Origin: Hyphomicrobiales bacterium | GTDB lineage: Bacteria; Pseudomonadota; Alphaproteobacteria; Rhizobiales; Rhizobiaceae | Direction of reading: 5' to 3' | DNA: 64,000 nucleotides | NCBI GenBank assembly: GCA_900473175.1 | Contig: UCKM01000004.1 | Span: 1-64,000, forward strand | Part shown: positions 54,151 through 61,360 of the stretch, piece after piece | Layout: the number at the start of each line of letters is the position of its first letter | Position numbering within the stretch: the stretch's first letter is position 1 | Notes under the pieces: generated by a model | The model's database searches: none | Told to the model about the DNA's origin: nothing | Seen by the model: the letters and a program-made list of their open reading frames with translations, nothing else | Program-made: the position numbers and the translations under genes

Positions 54151-54165
54151 GTTCCTTTTATGTTC
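54151..54165 (+). promoter_or_regulatory. LexA (SOS) box upstream of dinB
   Basis: GTTC-CTTTTAT-GTTC is a perfect match to the alphaproteobacterial LexA box GTTC-N7-GTTC. It lies at the predicted transcription start, and 15 bp before the chosen dinB ATG at 54181. dinB is a known SOS gene, so the position is as expected. Confidence 0.85.
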
Positions 54166-55515: not shown

Positions 55516-58500
55516 CTAACCCATTTCGACTTCGACGATTCCCGCAATGGCTTTCATGGCGCTAGCGACCTGCGGCCCGACACGATAGCGGTTCGGGAGT
55601 TCAATCTCGACCTCAGTCGCACCATTCTCCTTGATCAGAACAAGACTGACCACCTGGCCATCATTCTGCGGCGCCAGATAGGGCGCTATCGAGCTCAAGG
55701 GTTCGCTGGAGCGCATGTAGAGGCGCAGCGCCTTCTGCATGCGTGTCGCCTCGTCTTCAAGCGATTGCGCCGTCTGGATGCGCAAGCTGATGCCTTCCGG
55801 CCGATCTTCGGCGCCGACGGTCACCACCACAGATTTACCAGGCTCGAGCAAATCGCGATATTGCGACAAGGCTTCAGAGAACAGTACCGCTTCGAACTGG
55901 CCTGACGCATCGGAGAACTGGATGATCCCCATCTTGTTTCCGGTTTTGGTTTTGCGTTCCTGCTTGGCGATGATCGTACCCGCCAACCGTCCGGCATTCG
56001 CGCCGCGCTTTACCGCCGCCTGGAACTCCAGCCATGTCTGCACCCGCAGCTTTTCAAGGATCGGCCGGTATTCGTCGAGCGGATGGGCGGAAAGGTAGAA
56101 TCCCGCAGCCTCGAATTCGCGCCGTAGCTTCTCGGCAGAAAGCCAGGGAGCTGCGGCTGGCAATTGCAATGTCTGCGCCCCGCTGGCAAGGCCTCCGAAT
56201 ATGTCGGCCTGACCGCTGACGCTGTCTTCCTGGGTTCGCTGCGCGTGACCGATGATGCGGTCGAGACCGGCAATCATCGCCGGGCGCTCGCGGCCGAAGC
56301 AATCGAAAGCTCCGGCATTGATCAGGCTTTCGAAGACCCGCCGGTTGACAACACGCGGATCGATGCGCTCGCAGAAGTCCTCAAGGCTCGCATAGGGAGT
56401 GGCCCCGCGCTTTTCGACAATATGGTCGACCGCAGCCTCCCCGACGCCCTTGATCGCGGCGAGCGAATAATAGATGCGGTTTTCGCCGACTTCGAAGAGG
56501 CGATAGGAGGTATTGACCGAGGGCGTCACCACTTCAATACCAAGCCGAACGGCCTCTCGGCGGAAATCGTTGAGCTTGTCGGTGTTCGACATATCGTATG
56601 TCATCGAAGCCGCGAGGAATTCGACCGGATAGTGCGCCTTCATATAGGCGGTCTGGAAAGACACTATGGCGTAGGCGGCGGCGTGCGATTTGTTGAAGCC
56701 GTAATCGGCAAACTTCGCCAAAAGATCGAAGATGAAGTTGGCCTGCGGCTTGGTCACGCCGCGTTCCACCGCGCCATCGACGAAACGCACGCGTTGCATG
56801 TCCATTTCCGCGCGAATCTTCTTGCCCATGGCGCGTCGCAAAAGATCGGCTTCGCCCAGCGTATAGCCGGACATTTCCTGCGCGATCTGCATCACCTGTT
56901 CCTGATAGATGATGACGCCTTGGGTTTCCTTGACGAGATGGTCGATCTTCGGATGGATCGACGCCATCTCCTCATCGCCGTTCTTGCGCGCATTGTAGGT
57001 CGGGATGTTTTCCATCGGGCCCGGCCGGTAGAGCGCGACGAGCGCAATGATATCTTCGATCCGGTCCGGCCGCATGCCGATCAGGGCCTTGCGCATGCCG
57101 GTGCTTTCCACCTGGAACACACCGACCGTCTCACCGCGGGAAAGCATCTCGTAGGTCAGCTTGTCATCGAATGGCAAATTGGAGAGATCGACGCTGATGC
57201 CGCGGCGTTTGACGAGATTGACGGCGGTCTGAAGCACGGTCAGCGTTTTCAGGCCGAGGAAGTCGAATTTGACCAGGCCGGCCTCTTCCACCATCTTCAT
57301 GTTGAACTGGGTTACCGGCATGTCCGAGCGCGGATCGCGGTACATCGGCACCAGCTCCGACAAAGGCCGGTCGCCGATGACAATACCTGCCGCGTGCGTG
57401 GAAGCGTGGCGATAAAGTCCTTCGAGCTTCAGCGATATATCAAGCAGTCGCTCGACGACCGGCTCCTTGTCGCGCTCCTCGCGCAAACGCGGCTCGTCTT
57501 CGATTGCCTTGGACAGGGTAACAGGGTTTGCCGGGTTCGCCGGAACCATCTTGGTCAGGCGGTCGACCTGGCCATAGGGCATTTCCAGGACACGACCGAC
57601 GTCGCGGAGCACTGCCCTCGCCTGCAAAGTTCCGAACGTAATAATCTGCGCTACCTGATCGCGGCCATACTTGCCCTGGACATAGCGAATAACCTCATCG
57701 CGCCGGTCCTGGCAGAAATCGATGTCGAAGTCGGGCATCGAGACACGGTCCGGATTAAGGAAGCGCTCGAACAGCAGCGAGAATCGCAAAGGATCGACGT
57801 CAGTGATGGTCAAGGCGTAGGCGACGAGGGACCCGGCGCCGGAGCCACGCCCCGGTCCAACTGGAATATCGTGGGCCTTCGCCCATTTGATGAAATCGGC
57901 AACGATGAGGAAGTAGCCCGGATATTTCATCCGGGTGATGATCGAAATCTCATATTCAAGCCGCTCGGCATACTGCTCCGGTGTGTGTCCCTCGGCGAGG
58001 CCCTGCATCTCGATGCGCTTGGCAAGTCCCTCCCGTGCCTGCCGTGCAAGCTCATCGGCCTCCGCTTGCAAGGCGGAATCGGGATCGTCGCTTTCGCCTG
58101 TGAAGCGCGGCAGGATGGGGGCGCGATTCTTCGGATAATATGAGCAGCGCAGCGCAATCTCGACGGTGTTTTCAACAGCCTCGGGCAAATCGGCGAACAA
58201 GGCCACCATCTCGTCTTCGCTCTTGAGATAATGATCCTGCGTCAGACGGCGGCGGTCATCTATCGACAGCAGCGATCCGGCTGCAATCGCCAGCAGCGCA
58301 TCATGCGCCTCATAGTCAGCGCTCTTGGAGAAAAAGACATCGTTGGTGGCAACGAGAGGCAGTTCAAGCTCATAGGCAAGTTCAACCTGCGCCGCTTCCA
58401 GCGCCCGATCAAAACCGGCATGCCGCTGCAGTTCGACATAGAGCCGATCCCCGAACAACGATCGAAGGTATACAAGGCGCTGCCGCGCCCGATCGACGCG

Positions 58501-59013
58501 ATCATCCTTGATCGCCTTGGCGATCGGGCCTTCCGGACCGCCCGACAGGACAATTATGCCGTTCGCCAGACCCGAGAGCCAGGACGAGGAAATGTGGACA
58601 GGATCACCGGCCGGCGTCTCAAGATAGGCGCGGCTGACGAGACGTACGAGATTGGCATAACCCGCCTCAGTTGCGGCTAACAAGACAAGCGGAGCAAGAC
58701 CAAGCGCCTCGCGTCGATTGGCACTCCGGCTTTCTTCCGCCTGATCATGAAATGCGACATCGAGCTGGCACCCGATGATCGGTTGCAACCCGGCTTTCGA
58801 TCCCTTCTGGGCAAATTCCAGCGCACCGAAGAGGTTATTGGTGTCGGTAATCGCAATTGCGGGAGCCTTGTTGGCTACCGCAAGGTCAATAACCTTCGGA
58901 ATCTGCAAGGCGCCTTCAAGCAGTGAATAGGCAGAATGCACCCTCAGATGGATGTATCGCAGCGCCTGCTTGCCCGAATTGCCATTGCCGCCGCTACCCT
59001 GCCCGTCTGCCAA
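55516..59013 (-). CDS. dnaE: DNA polymerase III subunit alpha
   Basis: This 1165-residue replicative polymerase has an N-terminal PHP domain (HLRVHSAYSLLEGALQ), the polymerase core with the catalytic acidic motif MPDFDIDFCQDRR near residue 420, helix-hairpin-helix segments and a C-terminal OB domain (LAGTIIAKQERKTKTGNKMG). The start is TTG: no ATG lies before the conserved PHP sequence, and GGAG lies eight bases upstream. A 28-residue membrane protein gene with a LexA box lies 165 bp upstream on the same strand, with no visible terminator between. Confidence 0.96.
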   Translation of the reverse strand: MADGQGSGGNGNSGKQALRYIHLRVHSAYSLLEGALQIPKVIDLAVANKAPAIAITDTNNLFGALEFAQKGSKAGLQPIIGCQLDVAFHDQAEESRSANRREALGLAPLVLLAATEAGYANLVRLVSRAYLETPAGDPVHISSSWLSGLANGIIVLSGGPEGPIAKAIKDDRVDRARQRLVYLRSLFGDRLYVELQRHAGFDRALEAAQVELAYELELPLVATNDVFFSKSADYEAHDALLAIAAGSLLSIDDRRRLTQDHYLKSEDEMVALFADLPEAVENTVEIALRCSYYPKNRAPILPRFTGESDDPDSALQAEADELARQAREGLAKRIEMQGLAEGHTPEQYAERLEYEISIITRMKYPGYFLIVADFIKWAKAHDIPVGPGRGSGAGSLVAYALTITDVDPLRFSLLFERFLNPDRVSMPDFDIDFCQDRRDEVIRYVQGKYGRDQVAQIITFGTLQARAVLRDVGRVLEMPYGQVDRLTKMVPANPANPVTLSKAIEDEPRLREERDKEPVVERLLDISLKLEGLYRHASTHAAGIVIGDRPLSELVPMYRDPRSDMPVTQFNMKMVEEAGLVKFDFLGLKTLTVLQTAVNLVKRRGISVDLSNLPFDDKLTYEMLSRGETVGVFQVESTGMRKALIGMRPDRIEDIIALVALYRPGPMENIPTYNARKNGDEEMASIHPKIDHLVKETQGVIIYQEQVMQIAQEMSGYTLGEADLLRRAMGKKIRAEMDMQRVRFVDGAVERGVTKPQANFIFDLLAKFADYGFNKSHAAAYAIVSFQTAYMKAHYPVEFLAASMTYDMSNTDKLNDFRREAVRLGIEVVTPSVNTSYRLFEVGENRIYYSLAAIKGVGEAAVDHIVEKRGATPYASLEDFCERIDPRVVNRRVFESLINAGAFDCFGRERPAMIAGLDRIIGHAQRTQEDSVSGQADIFGGLASGAQTLQLPAAAPWLSAEKLRREFEAAGFYLSAHPLDEYRPILEKLRVQTWLEFQAAVKRGANAGRLAGTIIAKQERKTKTGNKMGIIQFSDASGQFEAVLFSEALSQYRDLLEPGKSVVVTVGAEDRPEGISLRIQTAQSLEDEATRMQKALRLYMRSSEPLSSIAPYLAPQNDGQVVSLVLIKENGATEVEIELPNRYRVGPQVASAMKAIAGIVEVEMG

Positions 59014-59178: not shown

Positions 59179-59265
59179 TCAGATCACGCTAACCCACATG
59201 GCGAACGTCGCAATGAACAGGCTGACGGTAACGAATGACATAACGTCCTGGAAAAGTTCGCTCAT
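59179..59265 (-). CDS. 28-residue membrane microprotein under a LexA box (SidA-like candidate)
   Basis: This 28-residue frame begins MSELFQDVMS and ends FAMWVSVI. Residues 10-28 form one hydrophobic helix, preceded by a short polar, acidic segment. A ribosome-site-like AAGGG lies eight bases before the ATG. Its upstream promoter overlaps a perfect LexA box. SidA of Caulobacter crescentus is a 29-residue, SOS-induced inner-membrane inhibitor of division acting on FtsW/FtsN; size, predicted topology and control match. Homology was not tested, so the link is inferred. It is followed by dnaE. Confidence 0.65.
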   Translation of the reverse strand: MSELFQDVMSFVTVSLFIATFAMWVSVI

Positions 59266-59292
59266 CGGTAAAACCCTTCTTCGTTGTCTCTA

Positions 59293-59322
59293 TGTATATG
59301 TTTTGTTCTATTTTTGTTCCAA
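59293..59322 (-). promoter_or_regulatory. Promoter of the microprotein gene
   Basis: On the minus strand, TTGGAA (complement of 59317-59322) and TATACA (complement of 59293-59298) are 18 bp apart, a good sigma70-type promoter. The LexA box lies between and across the -35, so LexA binding would exclude polymerase. Confidence 0.6.
59305..59319. promoter_or_regulatory. LexA (SOS) box upstream of the microprotein gene
   Basis: GTTC-TATTTTT-GTTC is a perfect alphaproteobacterial LexA box, 40-54 bp before the microprotein ATG and overlapping its -35 element. It is the second such box in the window; the other precedes dinB. Confidence 0.85.
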
Positions 59323-59389
59323 AGTCAAGCACGCCAAAGCACCGATCGGCGCTATGGTTTGTGAAAACTTAACAGAGGGTAAAACCGGC

Positions 59390-60073
59390 TCAGAGGTTGG
59401 TGATCTTGCCGTCCTTAAGGGTCACGCGCCGATCCATCCGGCGTGCAAGCTCGAAATTGTGGGTTGCGATCATCGCCGACAGGCCCGATTGGCGCACGAG
59501 CGCTTCCAATGCCTCAAAGACATAGGACGACGTCACCGGGTCGAGATTGCCTGTCGGCTCGTCGGCAAGGAGGACGAGCGGAGCGTTGGCCACGGCGCGG
59601 GCGATTGCAACGCGCTGCTGTTCGCCGCCGGAAAGTTCGCTCGGCCTGTGCGACGCCCGCGCTCCGACTTTCATATAGTCGAGAAGTTGCTGGGCGCGCT
59701 CGGAAGCAACCGCCGGTTTCATGCCACGGATCATCTGCGGCATCATCACGTTCTCAAGTGCCGAGAACTCGGGCAGCAGATGATGAAACTGGTAGACGAA
59801 GCCGATATCGTTGCGGCGGATGGCGGTGCGCTCCTCGTCGGAAAGCGACCCGCACGACCGCCCGTCTAGAATCACATCACCGCTGTCGGGGCGTTCGAGC
59901 AGCCCCGCCGTATGCAGCAAGGTAGATTTGCCCGCACCTGACGGTGCGACGAGTGCAACCATCTCGCCCTTGCCCAGCGAGAAATTCGCATCATTAAGGA
60001 TGACCAATTCCCGGTCGATCTCATCGTACCGACGGCCGACGCTCGTCAGTTGCAAAATTGGGCCGGCCGCCAT
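59390..60073 (-). CDS. lolD: Lipoprotein-releasing system ATP-binding protein (LolD)
   Basis: This 227-residue ABC ATPase powers release of lipoproteins from the inner membrane to LolA. The Walker A motif is [12 protein letters not shown], the signature is [14 protein letters not shown], and Walker B is [12 protein letters not shown]. Similarity to MacB/FtsE-type ATPases is high; the LolD assignment follows from the adjoining permease. It starts directly after the permease stop (60073/60074). Confidence 0.9.
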
Positions 60074-61360
60074 TTATTCGTACCTCAGGGCTTCAACGGG
60101 ATCGAGCTTGGCGGCACGCCATGCGGGAAACAGCGTCGCAAGAAAAGACAGAACGAGGGCCATCAGGATGACCGAGAAGGTTTCGTTGAAATCCATCTTT
60201 GCCGGCAGCGTGCTGAGGAAATAGAGCTCAGGGTTGAACAGCGTCGTCCCCGAGAGCCAAGAGAAGAACTCCCTGATCCGCTCGACATTGAGACAGACAA
60301 CTACGCCAAGGACCACACCGGCAATCGTGCCAGTAACGCCGATGGCTGCGCCCGTCATCAGGAAGATACGCAGGATAGAATTTCGGGTCGCGCCCATGGT
60401 CCTCAGAATGGCTATGTCGTGGCCCTTGTCCTTCACCAGCATGATAAGGCCGGAAATGATGTTGAGCGCCGCAACCAGCACGATCAACGTCAAAATCATG
60501 AACATGACATTGCGCTCGACCTGCAGGGCCGAAAAGAACGTCTGGTTGCGCTGACGCCAGTCGGTCAGCATCAGGCCGCGCTGCGCTGCATCCTCGACCG
60601 GTTTTTTCAAAGCGTCCACGGTGTCCGGGTTGTCAGCGAAAATCTCGATCGACTGAACCTTGCCTTCCTGGTTGAAGTAGAGCTGCGCCTCATCAAGGGG
60701 CATGATCGCAATTGACGCATCATATTCCGACATGCCTATTTCGAAGATGGCGGTCACCGGATAGGATTTGACGCGGGGCGCCATGCCGAGCGGCGTCACA
60801 TCACCGTCGGGAGAGATCAGGGTTAGACGGTCACCAAGTCCAAGCCCCAGATTTTCGGCCATGCGCGTGCCAATGGCGACGCCTCCGGCCGTGTTGAACC
60901 CTTCAAAGGTACCCTGCCGCACATTGGTGGATACCAGCTTCAGCTTGGCAATATCTTCCTCGCGCAAGCCCCGCACCAGAGCGCCAGAGCCCGCCCCGAC
61001 ATTGCCCTTGGCGAGAACCTGCCCCTCGATTACCGGAATGGCAAAGGATACGCCCGGCAGCGCATCGATGCGCTTGATCACTGCGTCATAGTCGTCCAGC
61101 GGCCGATCGATTGGCTGCATGATCAGGTGACCGTTGATGCCGAGAATGCGGGTCAAAAGCTCGCTGCGAAAGCCGTTCATCACCGCCATGACGATTATCA
61201 AGGTCGCGACGCCAAGCATGATGCCGGTAAACGAGAACCCGGCAATCACCGAAATGAAAGTCTCTTTCCGCCTCGCGCGCAGATAGCGCCAGGCGATCAT
61301 CCGTTCATAGGCCGAGAACGGTTTGGAGCCGGACATCGCGGTGACTGCCTGATCGTTCAT
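60074..61360 (-). CDS. lolC: Lipoprotein-releasing system permease (LolC/LolE type)
   Basis: This 428-residue permease has four predicted membrane helices, one N-terminal ([20 protein letters not shown]) and three at the C-terminus, separated by a large periplasmic MacB_PCD domain. Alphaproteobacteria often have one such permease (LolF) that serves as a homodimer in place of LolC and LolE. It shares four bases with the proS stop (ATGA at 61357-61360). Confidence 0.9.

Follow-up and report, generated by a model that had tools for sequence, protein, structure and literature searches.

How cell division is coupled to DNA damage in rhizobia is the question raised by an unannotated frame of only 28 codons between lolD and dnaE in a Hyphomicrobiales bacterium of the Rhizobiaceae. 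A literature search found no named effector for this coupling in rhizobia and, with most subscription papers outside it, no report of a rhizobial SidA orthologue. SidA is the microprotein by which Caulobacter crescentus halts division after DNA damage, with Modell 2011 as its founding paper. It is a 29-residue inner-membrane protein that acts on FtsW (PMC4211646). A sequence-only reading of the window, as the whole stretch of 64,000 nt analysed here is called, had proposed that the frame encodes an SOS-controlled membrane microprotein of this type.

The 28-codon frame and its putative operator

The features of the locus, in the direction of transcription, are as follows.

60074 to 61360, minus strand: lolC-type lipoprotein-releasing permease, an open reading frame whose same-position gene in S. 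meliloti is annotated as a lipoprotein-releasing ABC permease
59390 to 60073, minus strand: lolD, ABC ATPase (PF00005), named from its position beside lolC and from similarity
59324 to 59328, minus strand: TTGAC, the likely -35 element, just upstream of the LexA box
59305 to 59319, minus strand: LexA box GAACAAAAATAGAAC, exact, GTTC-N7-GTTC on the plus strand
59274 to 59280, minus strand: AGAAGGG, a ribosome-binding site read from the sequence, 8 nt upstream of the ATG
59179 to 59265, minus strand: sidA candidate frame MSELFQDVMSFVTVSLFIATFAMWVSVI, 28 codons, ATG at 59265 to 59263 and stop at 59181 to 59179
55516 to 59013, minus strand: dnaE, replicative DNA polymerase III alpha subunit (PF07733, PF17657, PF02811, TIGR00594), start codon uncertain

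The minus-strand order is lolC, lolD, gap, dnaE, with the box, the ribosome site and the frame all contained in the gap; the box starts 54 nt before the ATG, and the frame lies 165 nt from that of dnaE on the same strand. The earlier claims of a 28-codon frame with a ribosome site and of a perfect LexA box are both borne out at these positions. The peptide has one predicted membrane helix, at about residues 9-28, with a hydropathy peak of 2.16 over 17 residues. A terminator-like site lies at 59352-59331, between lolD and the box (1 observed versus 0.5 in shuffles), and the same scan found none between the candidate and dnaE. The RNA of this second gap has a fold slightly more stable than that of shuffles (z -1.71). 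Transcription from the candidate's promoter may read through into dnaE in the window.

The promoter itself was not confirmed. It had been described as a good one with the box overlapping its -35 element, and a likely -35, the TTGAC, is present; among 16 leaders chosen for alignment the TTG just upstream of the box is invariant (16/16), and TTGAC was read there in 12. A sigma-70 consensus scan, which did not pick up the TTGAC, found no promoter. In the window this element ends 4 nt before the box, so that the box closely follows the likely -35 and does not plainly cover it.

The number of boxes is in itself uninformative. Exact boxes occur twice in the window against 1.97 expected, and the whole genome has 82 + 84 matches (166) against 84 + 80 (164) for a reversed control pattern, a density of about one per 59 kb per strand. 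At this measured density, about 0.4% of 220-nt leaders would carry a box by chance, so that the significance of the box comes through its conservation, with an exact copy at 28 of 30 closely related loci. The motif agrees with that published for Caulobacter LexA, GTTCN7GTTC (PMC12700426), and the single lexA match of this genome (TIGR00498) has the same motif, GAACACAACTGGAAC, 68 nt before its presumed start. Eight further boxes of the genome were inspected, and two of them precede apparent repair genes, a Y-family polymerase and a UvrD-like helicase (recognised by eye only).

The second exact GTTC-N7-GTTC of the window, at 54151-54165, straddles the start of a plus-strand frame that runs from 54142 onward and by eye resembles dinB (polymerase IV); it may be a LexA site or a coding coincidence. 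A DNA polymerase IV gene is also present in the corresponding neighbourhood of S. meliloti.

Conservation and probable translation among relatives

A search with the 28-mer matched 41 of 151 family genomes, the window's included, at E<=0.01. From the 44 places listed, 30 close loci (L009-L038, the window's among them) were examined, and every one has an ATG start and exactly 28 residues. Within 220 nt, an exact GAACN7GAAC box is found at 28 of these loci (27/29 when the window is set aside) and is absent from two; most of the boxes lie at -45 to -54 from the ATG, and some are in tandem. The comparison among relatives proposed by the sequence-only reading thus gives a frame that is conserved where the box is kept. 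Tandem boxes 11 nt apart, at about -48 and -37 from the ATG, were seen in L021-L026, L031, L037, L042-L045, L223 and L224, a hint of cooperative or tighter LexA control.

Judged from the pattern of substitutions, purifying selection on the amino-acid sequence is strong. Against its two nearest relatives the window frame differs by 9 synonymous and 0 nonsynonymous changes and by 10 synonymous changes and 1 nonsynonymous, and pairwise comparison of all of nine close loci gives a pN/pS of 0.18. Ungapped identity among the same nine is 0.76 within the frame, against 0.46 over the preceding 30 nt and 0.26 over the following 60 nt.

With about 1.5 kb examined on each side of the 30 close loci, the window included, a dnaE match was found in the flank of 11 and lolD in that of 21, with neither in six. 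Of the 19 loci without dnaE in the flank, 18 keep both the exact box and the 28-residue frame, which argues that the unit is box plus peptide and not a dnaE leader; a box acting only on dnaE, the outcome that the earlier reading had named as fatal to its proposal, is not what these loci show. The six loci with neither neighbour (L020, L024, L027, L030, L031 and L032) have exact box and frame, so that the box-peptide unit has moved on its own. By eye, L030 and L032 have a carB-like neighbour.

A profile search of 397 genomes of the order found a match in 55 of them at E<=0.05 and added weaker members. Among 28 further order loci, the box is exact in 21, near in three and missing in four; the 12 of these that come from other families include seven with an exact box, one with a near box and four with none, and a dnaE match lies close by in nine of the 12. 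Of the four matches that lack a box, three look false by eye, and the other, L064, lies between lolD and dnaE. The peptides of the order are mostly of 28-32 residues and share a common core of M, D/E at position 7 and F at position 17; W24 is lost in several members. Membership of a described protein family was considered and dropped, as searches with three such peptides each matched no family of NCBIfam or Pfam at E<=10 and none of PHROGs at E<=0.01.

Named rhizobia were reached through LolD, with four records inspected among the ten rows listed (28 records matched). Downstream of lolD, S. meliloti Ak57 (CP090106.1) and Sinorhizobium sp. K101 have MADFVRDLAAFASMSLFIVSISVIALGL and tandem boxes; in Shinella sp. 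PSBB067 the peptide is MTDFLRDLAAFTSVAMFVASFSVILFGI and the box single. In Paracoccus ferrooxidans, the fourth record and the one Paracoccus examined, lolC-lolD is present, and a test of the kind applied to the class below found no box-plus-helix frame. The order lolD, sidA, dnaE is common to the window, S. meliloti and Caulobacter sp. 602-1.

The S. meliloti locus probably offers evidence of translation as well. Its gene table, which is incomplete, lists no annotated gene in the lolD-dnaE gap. In Hadjeras et al. 2023, ribosome profiling of S. meliloti 2011 gives a translated novel sORF25 in the dnaE1 5'-UTR, published there without a function and named among 5'-UTR sORFs of which some are possibly uORFs (PMC10117765). 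Other same-strand frames are also present in the gap. The 28-residue frame, which in Ak57 stands upstream of dnaE with its tandem LexA boxes, is the one that has boxes and relatives, so that sORF25 is probably the sidA candidate frame. The earlier reading had held that a missing ribosome footprint would tell against it; to the extent that this identification is right, the profiling described in that source supplies one. The same paper describes S. meliloti SEP6, a protein of <30 aa with a predicted helix that is found in the P100 fraction and conserved in Hyphomicrobiales (PMC10117765); SEP6 might be the sidA candidate or another membrane microprotein.

Likeness to SidA and reach in the class

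The annotations that locate sidA in Caulobacter are those of sidA itself as CCNA_02004 (PMC11034885), of CCNA_02005 as an inosine-uridine nucleoside hydrolase (PMC3667746) and of dnaE as CC1926 (PMC1839093). Caulobacter genomes were reached via an S-layer protein, which gave six loci, and four records were used (two MAGs, Root343 and 602-1). Upstream of dnaE in all four stands GAACATCTTGTGAAC, then a 29-residue membrane frame or a near copy of it. In L196 the neighbouring frame is a PF01156 nucleoside hydrolase, just as CCNA_02005 stands beside CCNA_02004, and L197 has a nucleoside hydrolase-like frame that is clearly similar by eye; in 602-1, lolC-lolD lies upstream of the 29-residue frame, as in the window. 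The Caulobacter frame also has a longer in-frame ATG, 11 codons upstream (40 aa); the 29-residue start was chosen because SidA is published at that length and because GGAGG precedes that start. From its length, its box and its neighbours in these relatives of C. crescentus NA1000, the frame is taken to be SidA.

The likeness between the two peptides includes an upstream LexA box, 28 residues in the window and 29 in SidA, a single hydrophobic helix, and a place directly upstream of dnaE, with lolD upstream as well in 602-1. This shared slot in 4/4 Caulobacter genomes supports the SidA-type reading, which had been made with no test of homology. On a profile built from order members only, the Caulobacter frames score 11.0-12.9 bits, a level reached by 0-2 of 1000 shuffles. 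Aligned without gaps, the frames match at D/E7, V12, V14 and F17, and full shuffling matched or exceeded the ungapped profile score of the Caulobacter frame 31 times in 100,000, region-preserving shuffling 256 times in 100,000, so that the comparison with SidA called for earlier gives an alignment better than nearly all shuffles. Direct identity between the window peptide and the Caulobacter frame is low, at 4/28 with Met1 included (14/28 positions have a positive score), and the case for homology therefore rests on sequence, locus and control together; support for homology from the sequences themselves is moderate. The window peptide has no basic residue at all; close to the start of the Caulobacter frame stand two arginines, and topology could therefore differ.

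YneA, ChiZ and SosA, Gram-positive SOS division inhibitors from other phyla, are larger proteins than the window peptide. Their likeness to it, drawn from descriptions alone, is that of small membrane inhibitors that are induced by damage and have been linked to FtsW or modelled with it (PMC13396833). DidA of Caulobacter is likewise a small single-helix membrane inhibitor of division that is damage-induced, but it has 71 residues, is SOS-independent and acts on FtsN (PMC4211646), in contrast to a frame of 28 residues with a LexA box.

Beyond the order the profile search finds almost nothing (matches at E<=0.05 in 14 of 385 genomes, counting that of the window), and wider members were for that reason sought by position. 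Among 217 genomes of the class with a DnaE match, the DNA upstream of dnaE was examined in 69 besides the window, comprising the 29 best-scoring loci and 40 that were picked, mostly from large genomes, and hence not a random sample. A strict test, demanding an exact box and then, at 30-80 nt, an ATG frame of 26-50 residues with a strong helix, was passed by nine of the 69 regions. In control runs no region passed with any of 11 permuted motifs; of seven altered spacings, six gave 0 and the N11 spacing gave 1. The control motifs themselves occur only 0-5 times, compared with 11 for the LexA box.

The class members so found are not equally well tied to the order. In a second lineage, f56, the peptide is of a type with 32-34 residues, M-(x)-W-x-K/R-D, with an exact box at 29 of 30 loci and dnaE at all 30. 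For Caulobacter and f61 the likeness to the order profile is supported, and for f172 and one f56 peptide (L159) it is partly so. With f93, f133, f167 and two other peptides of f56, about 3-80% of shuffles reach the profile score, which leaves position and control as the only grounds for their homology.

Some SidA-like frames may lie in mobile DNA. The window 28-mer, run by tblastn against plasmid and phage collections, matched nothing at E<=1, but such a search has low power for 28 residues, since diverged copies do occur in records of the plasmid collection. Second SidA-like frames of 32 residues without an exact box were seen in L220 (9238-9336, plus strand; MRDLIEDALSFIAVSTFIATFAVWAAYLAEKV) and L221 (from about 13438, plus strand; MRDLLHDIASFVAVSTFIATFAVWAGYLAEKV). 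The L220 frame stands among repressor, exonuclease VIII, RecT and HNH genes (PHROGs) in the early region of a prophage, and a phage may there have captured a division inhibitor of its host. L222 (G050:C16:109106-109183, minus strand) has a less strongly SidA-like frame, beginning MIDLIHGALSVVSIGLFIATIAVWIGV, near an apparent mobile element by eye; no exact box was found within the stretch examined there.

A putative FtsW-directed brake and its alternatives

FtsW(A31K) suppresses SidA but not DidA, and F145L and A246T suppress both (PMC4211646); a 2026 paper reports a low-confidence prediction that SidA binds TM7 of FtsW (PMC13396833). With positions numbered from the start of Root343 FtsW, residues 31, 145 and 246 are A, F and A in the window's genome and in both Caulobacter proteins compared. 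Other genomes with box plus peptide differ, G105 having S31 and G541 having L31 and I145. With FtsW at 46% identity, conservation of the suppressor sites may reflect no more than the general conservation of the protein; A31, F145 and A246 are compatible with an FtsW target rather than proof of one.

Taken together, these results make it highly probable that the frame is an orthologue of Caulobacter sidA, encoding a LexA-repressed, FtsW-directed inhibitor that delays division after damage. In the proposed sequence of events, LexA on the box would block transcription of the candidate; DNA damage would activate RecA, LexA would be cleaved, and an mRNA with a short leader would be made. The 28-residue peptide would insert in the inner membrane as one helix and, by analogy with SidA, bind FtsW through that helix, holding the FtsW/FtsI/FtsN septal synthesis complex inactive and delaying division until repair. 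Support at the level of sequence extends to the operator, to the helix and to the FtsW sites that are conserved; that LexA binds, and that the peptide is induced, enters the membrane, contacts FtsW and arrests division, is presumed by analogy.

The alternative that survives best, while rather unlikely, keeps both the ancestry and the SOS induction and changes the target, so that a conserved membrane microprotein descended from SidA would now act on another part of the divisome or on an unrelated membrane complex. Low identity to SidA, the loss of W24 in several family members and a search that found no FtsW binding data for Rhizobiales are consistent with such a change, and polar-growing rhizobia have a different mode of envelope growth. 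The suppressor-site residues kept in the FtsW of the window's genome, the nearly constant length of the peptide and the retention of its D/E7-F17 core argue against it.

TisB and DinQ offer a different comparison. The features that mark these systems are the size of the peptide, a structured inactive leader and antisense RNA control of tisB and dinQ. A peptide of this kind, for which DinQ serves as the comparison system (PMC3567139), would be SOS-induced and would depolarise the inner membrane instead of binding the divisome. Size, predicted helix and LexA control fit it equally well, but the window frame shares its locus and a detectable sequence similarity with SidA, and folding the presumed leader together with the start of the frame showed no more structure than in shuffles (z 0.35), so that this explanation is improbable.

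A leader peptide regulating dnaE, that is, an upstream open reading frame, was rejected and has very little probability left. It would suit a frame 165 nt upstream of dnaE on the same strand with no terminator-like site between, the recurrence of the lolD-sidA-dnaE order, and the place of sORF25 among S. meliloti 5'-UTR sORFs, some possibly uORFs (PMC10117765). It is opposed by the 30 close loci, among which 19 showed no dnaE match within the flank of about 1.5 kb and all but one of these 19 keep exact box and frame, and by selection acting on the amino-acid sequence. Chance, with a small hydrophobic frame and a box that stand together by accident, agrees with box counts at chance level in window and genome and was nonetheless rejected as having almost no probability, given the conservation of frame, length and box in relatives and the pN/pS of 0.18.

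With the FtsW-directed inhibitor retained as the preferred reading, a broader proposal is about evenly balanced between true and false: that SidA, rather than being peculiar to Caulobacter, is an SOS division checkpoint ancestral in the Alphaproteobacteria and anchored at lolD-dnaE, that it has been overlooked as too short to annotate, and that some temperate phages have captured it. If this is true, prophage induction would also stop host division.

The rhizobial sidA candidate is rated here as a new relative of SidA, with the translated sORF25 partly known already. A SidA orthologue in Sinorhizobium, Shinella and many relatives would make the link between damage and division directly testable in a laboratory symbiont, and would probably explain what a translated sORF of S. 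meliloti, reported without a function, is for. A microprotein known from Caulobacter would thereby become a family, in which the conserved D/E7 and F17 can guide study of the contact with FtsW.
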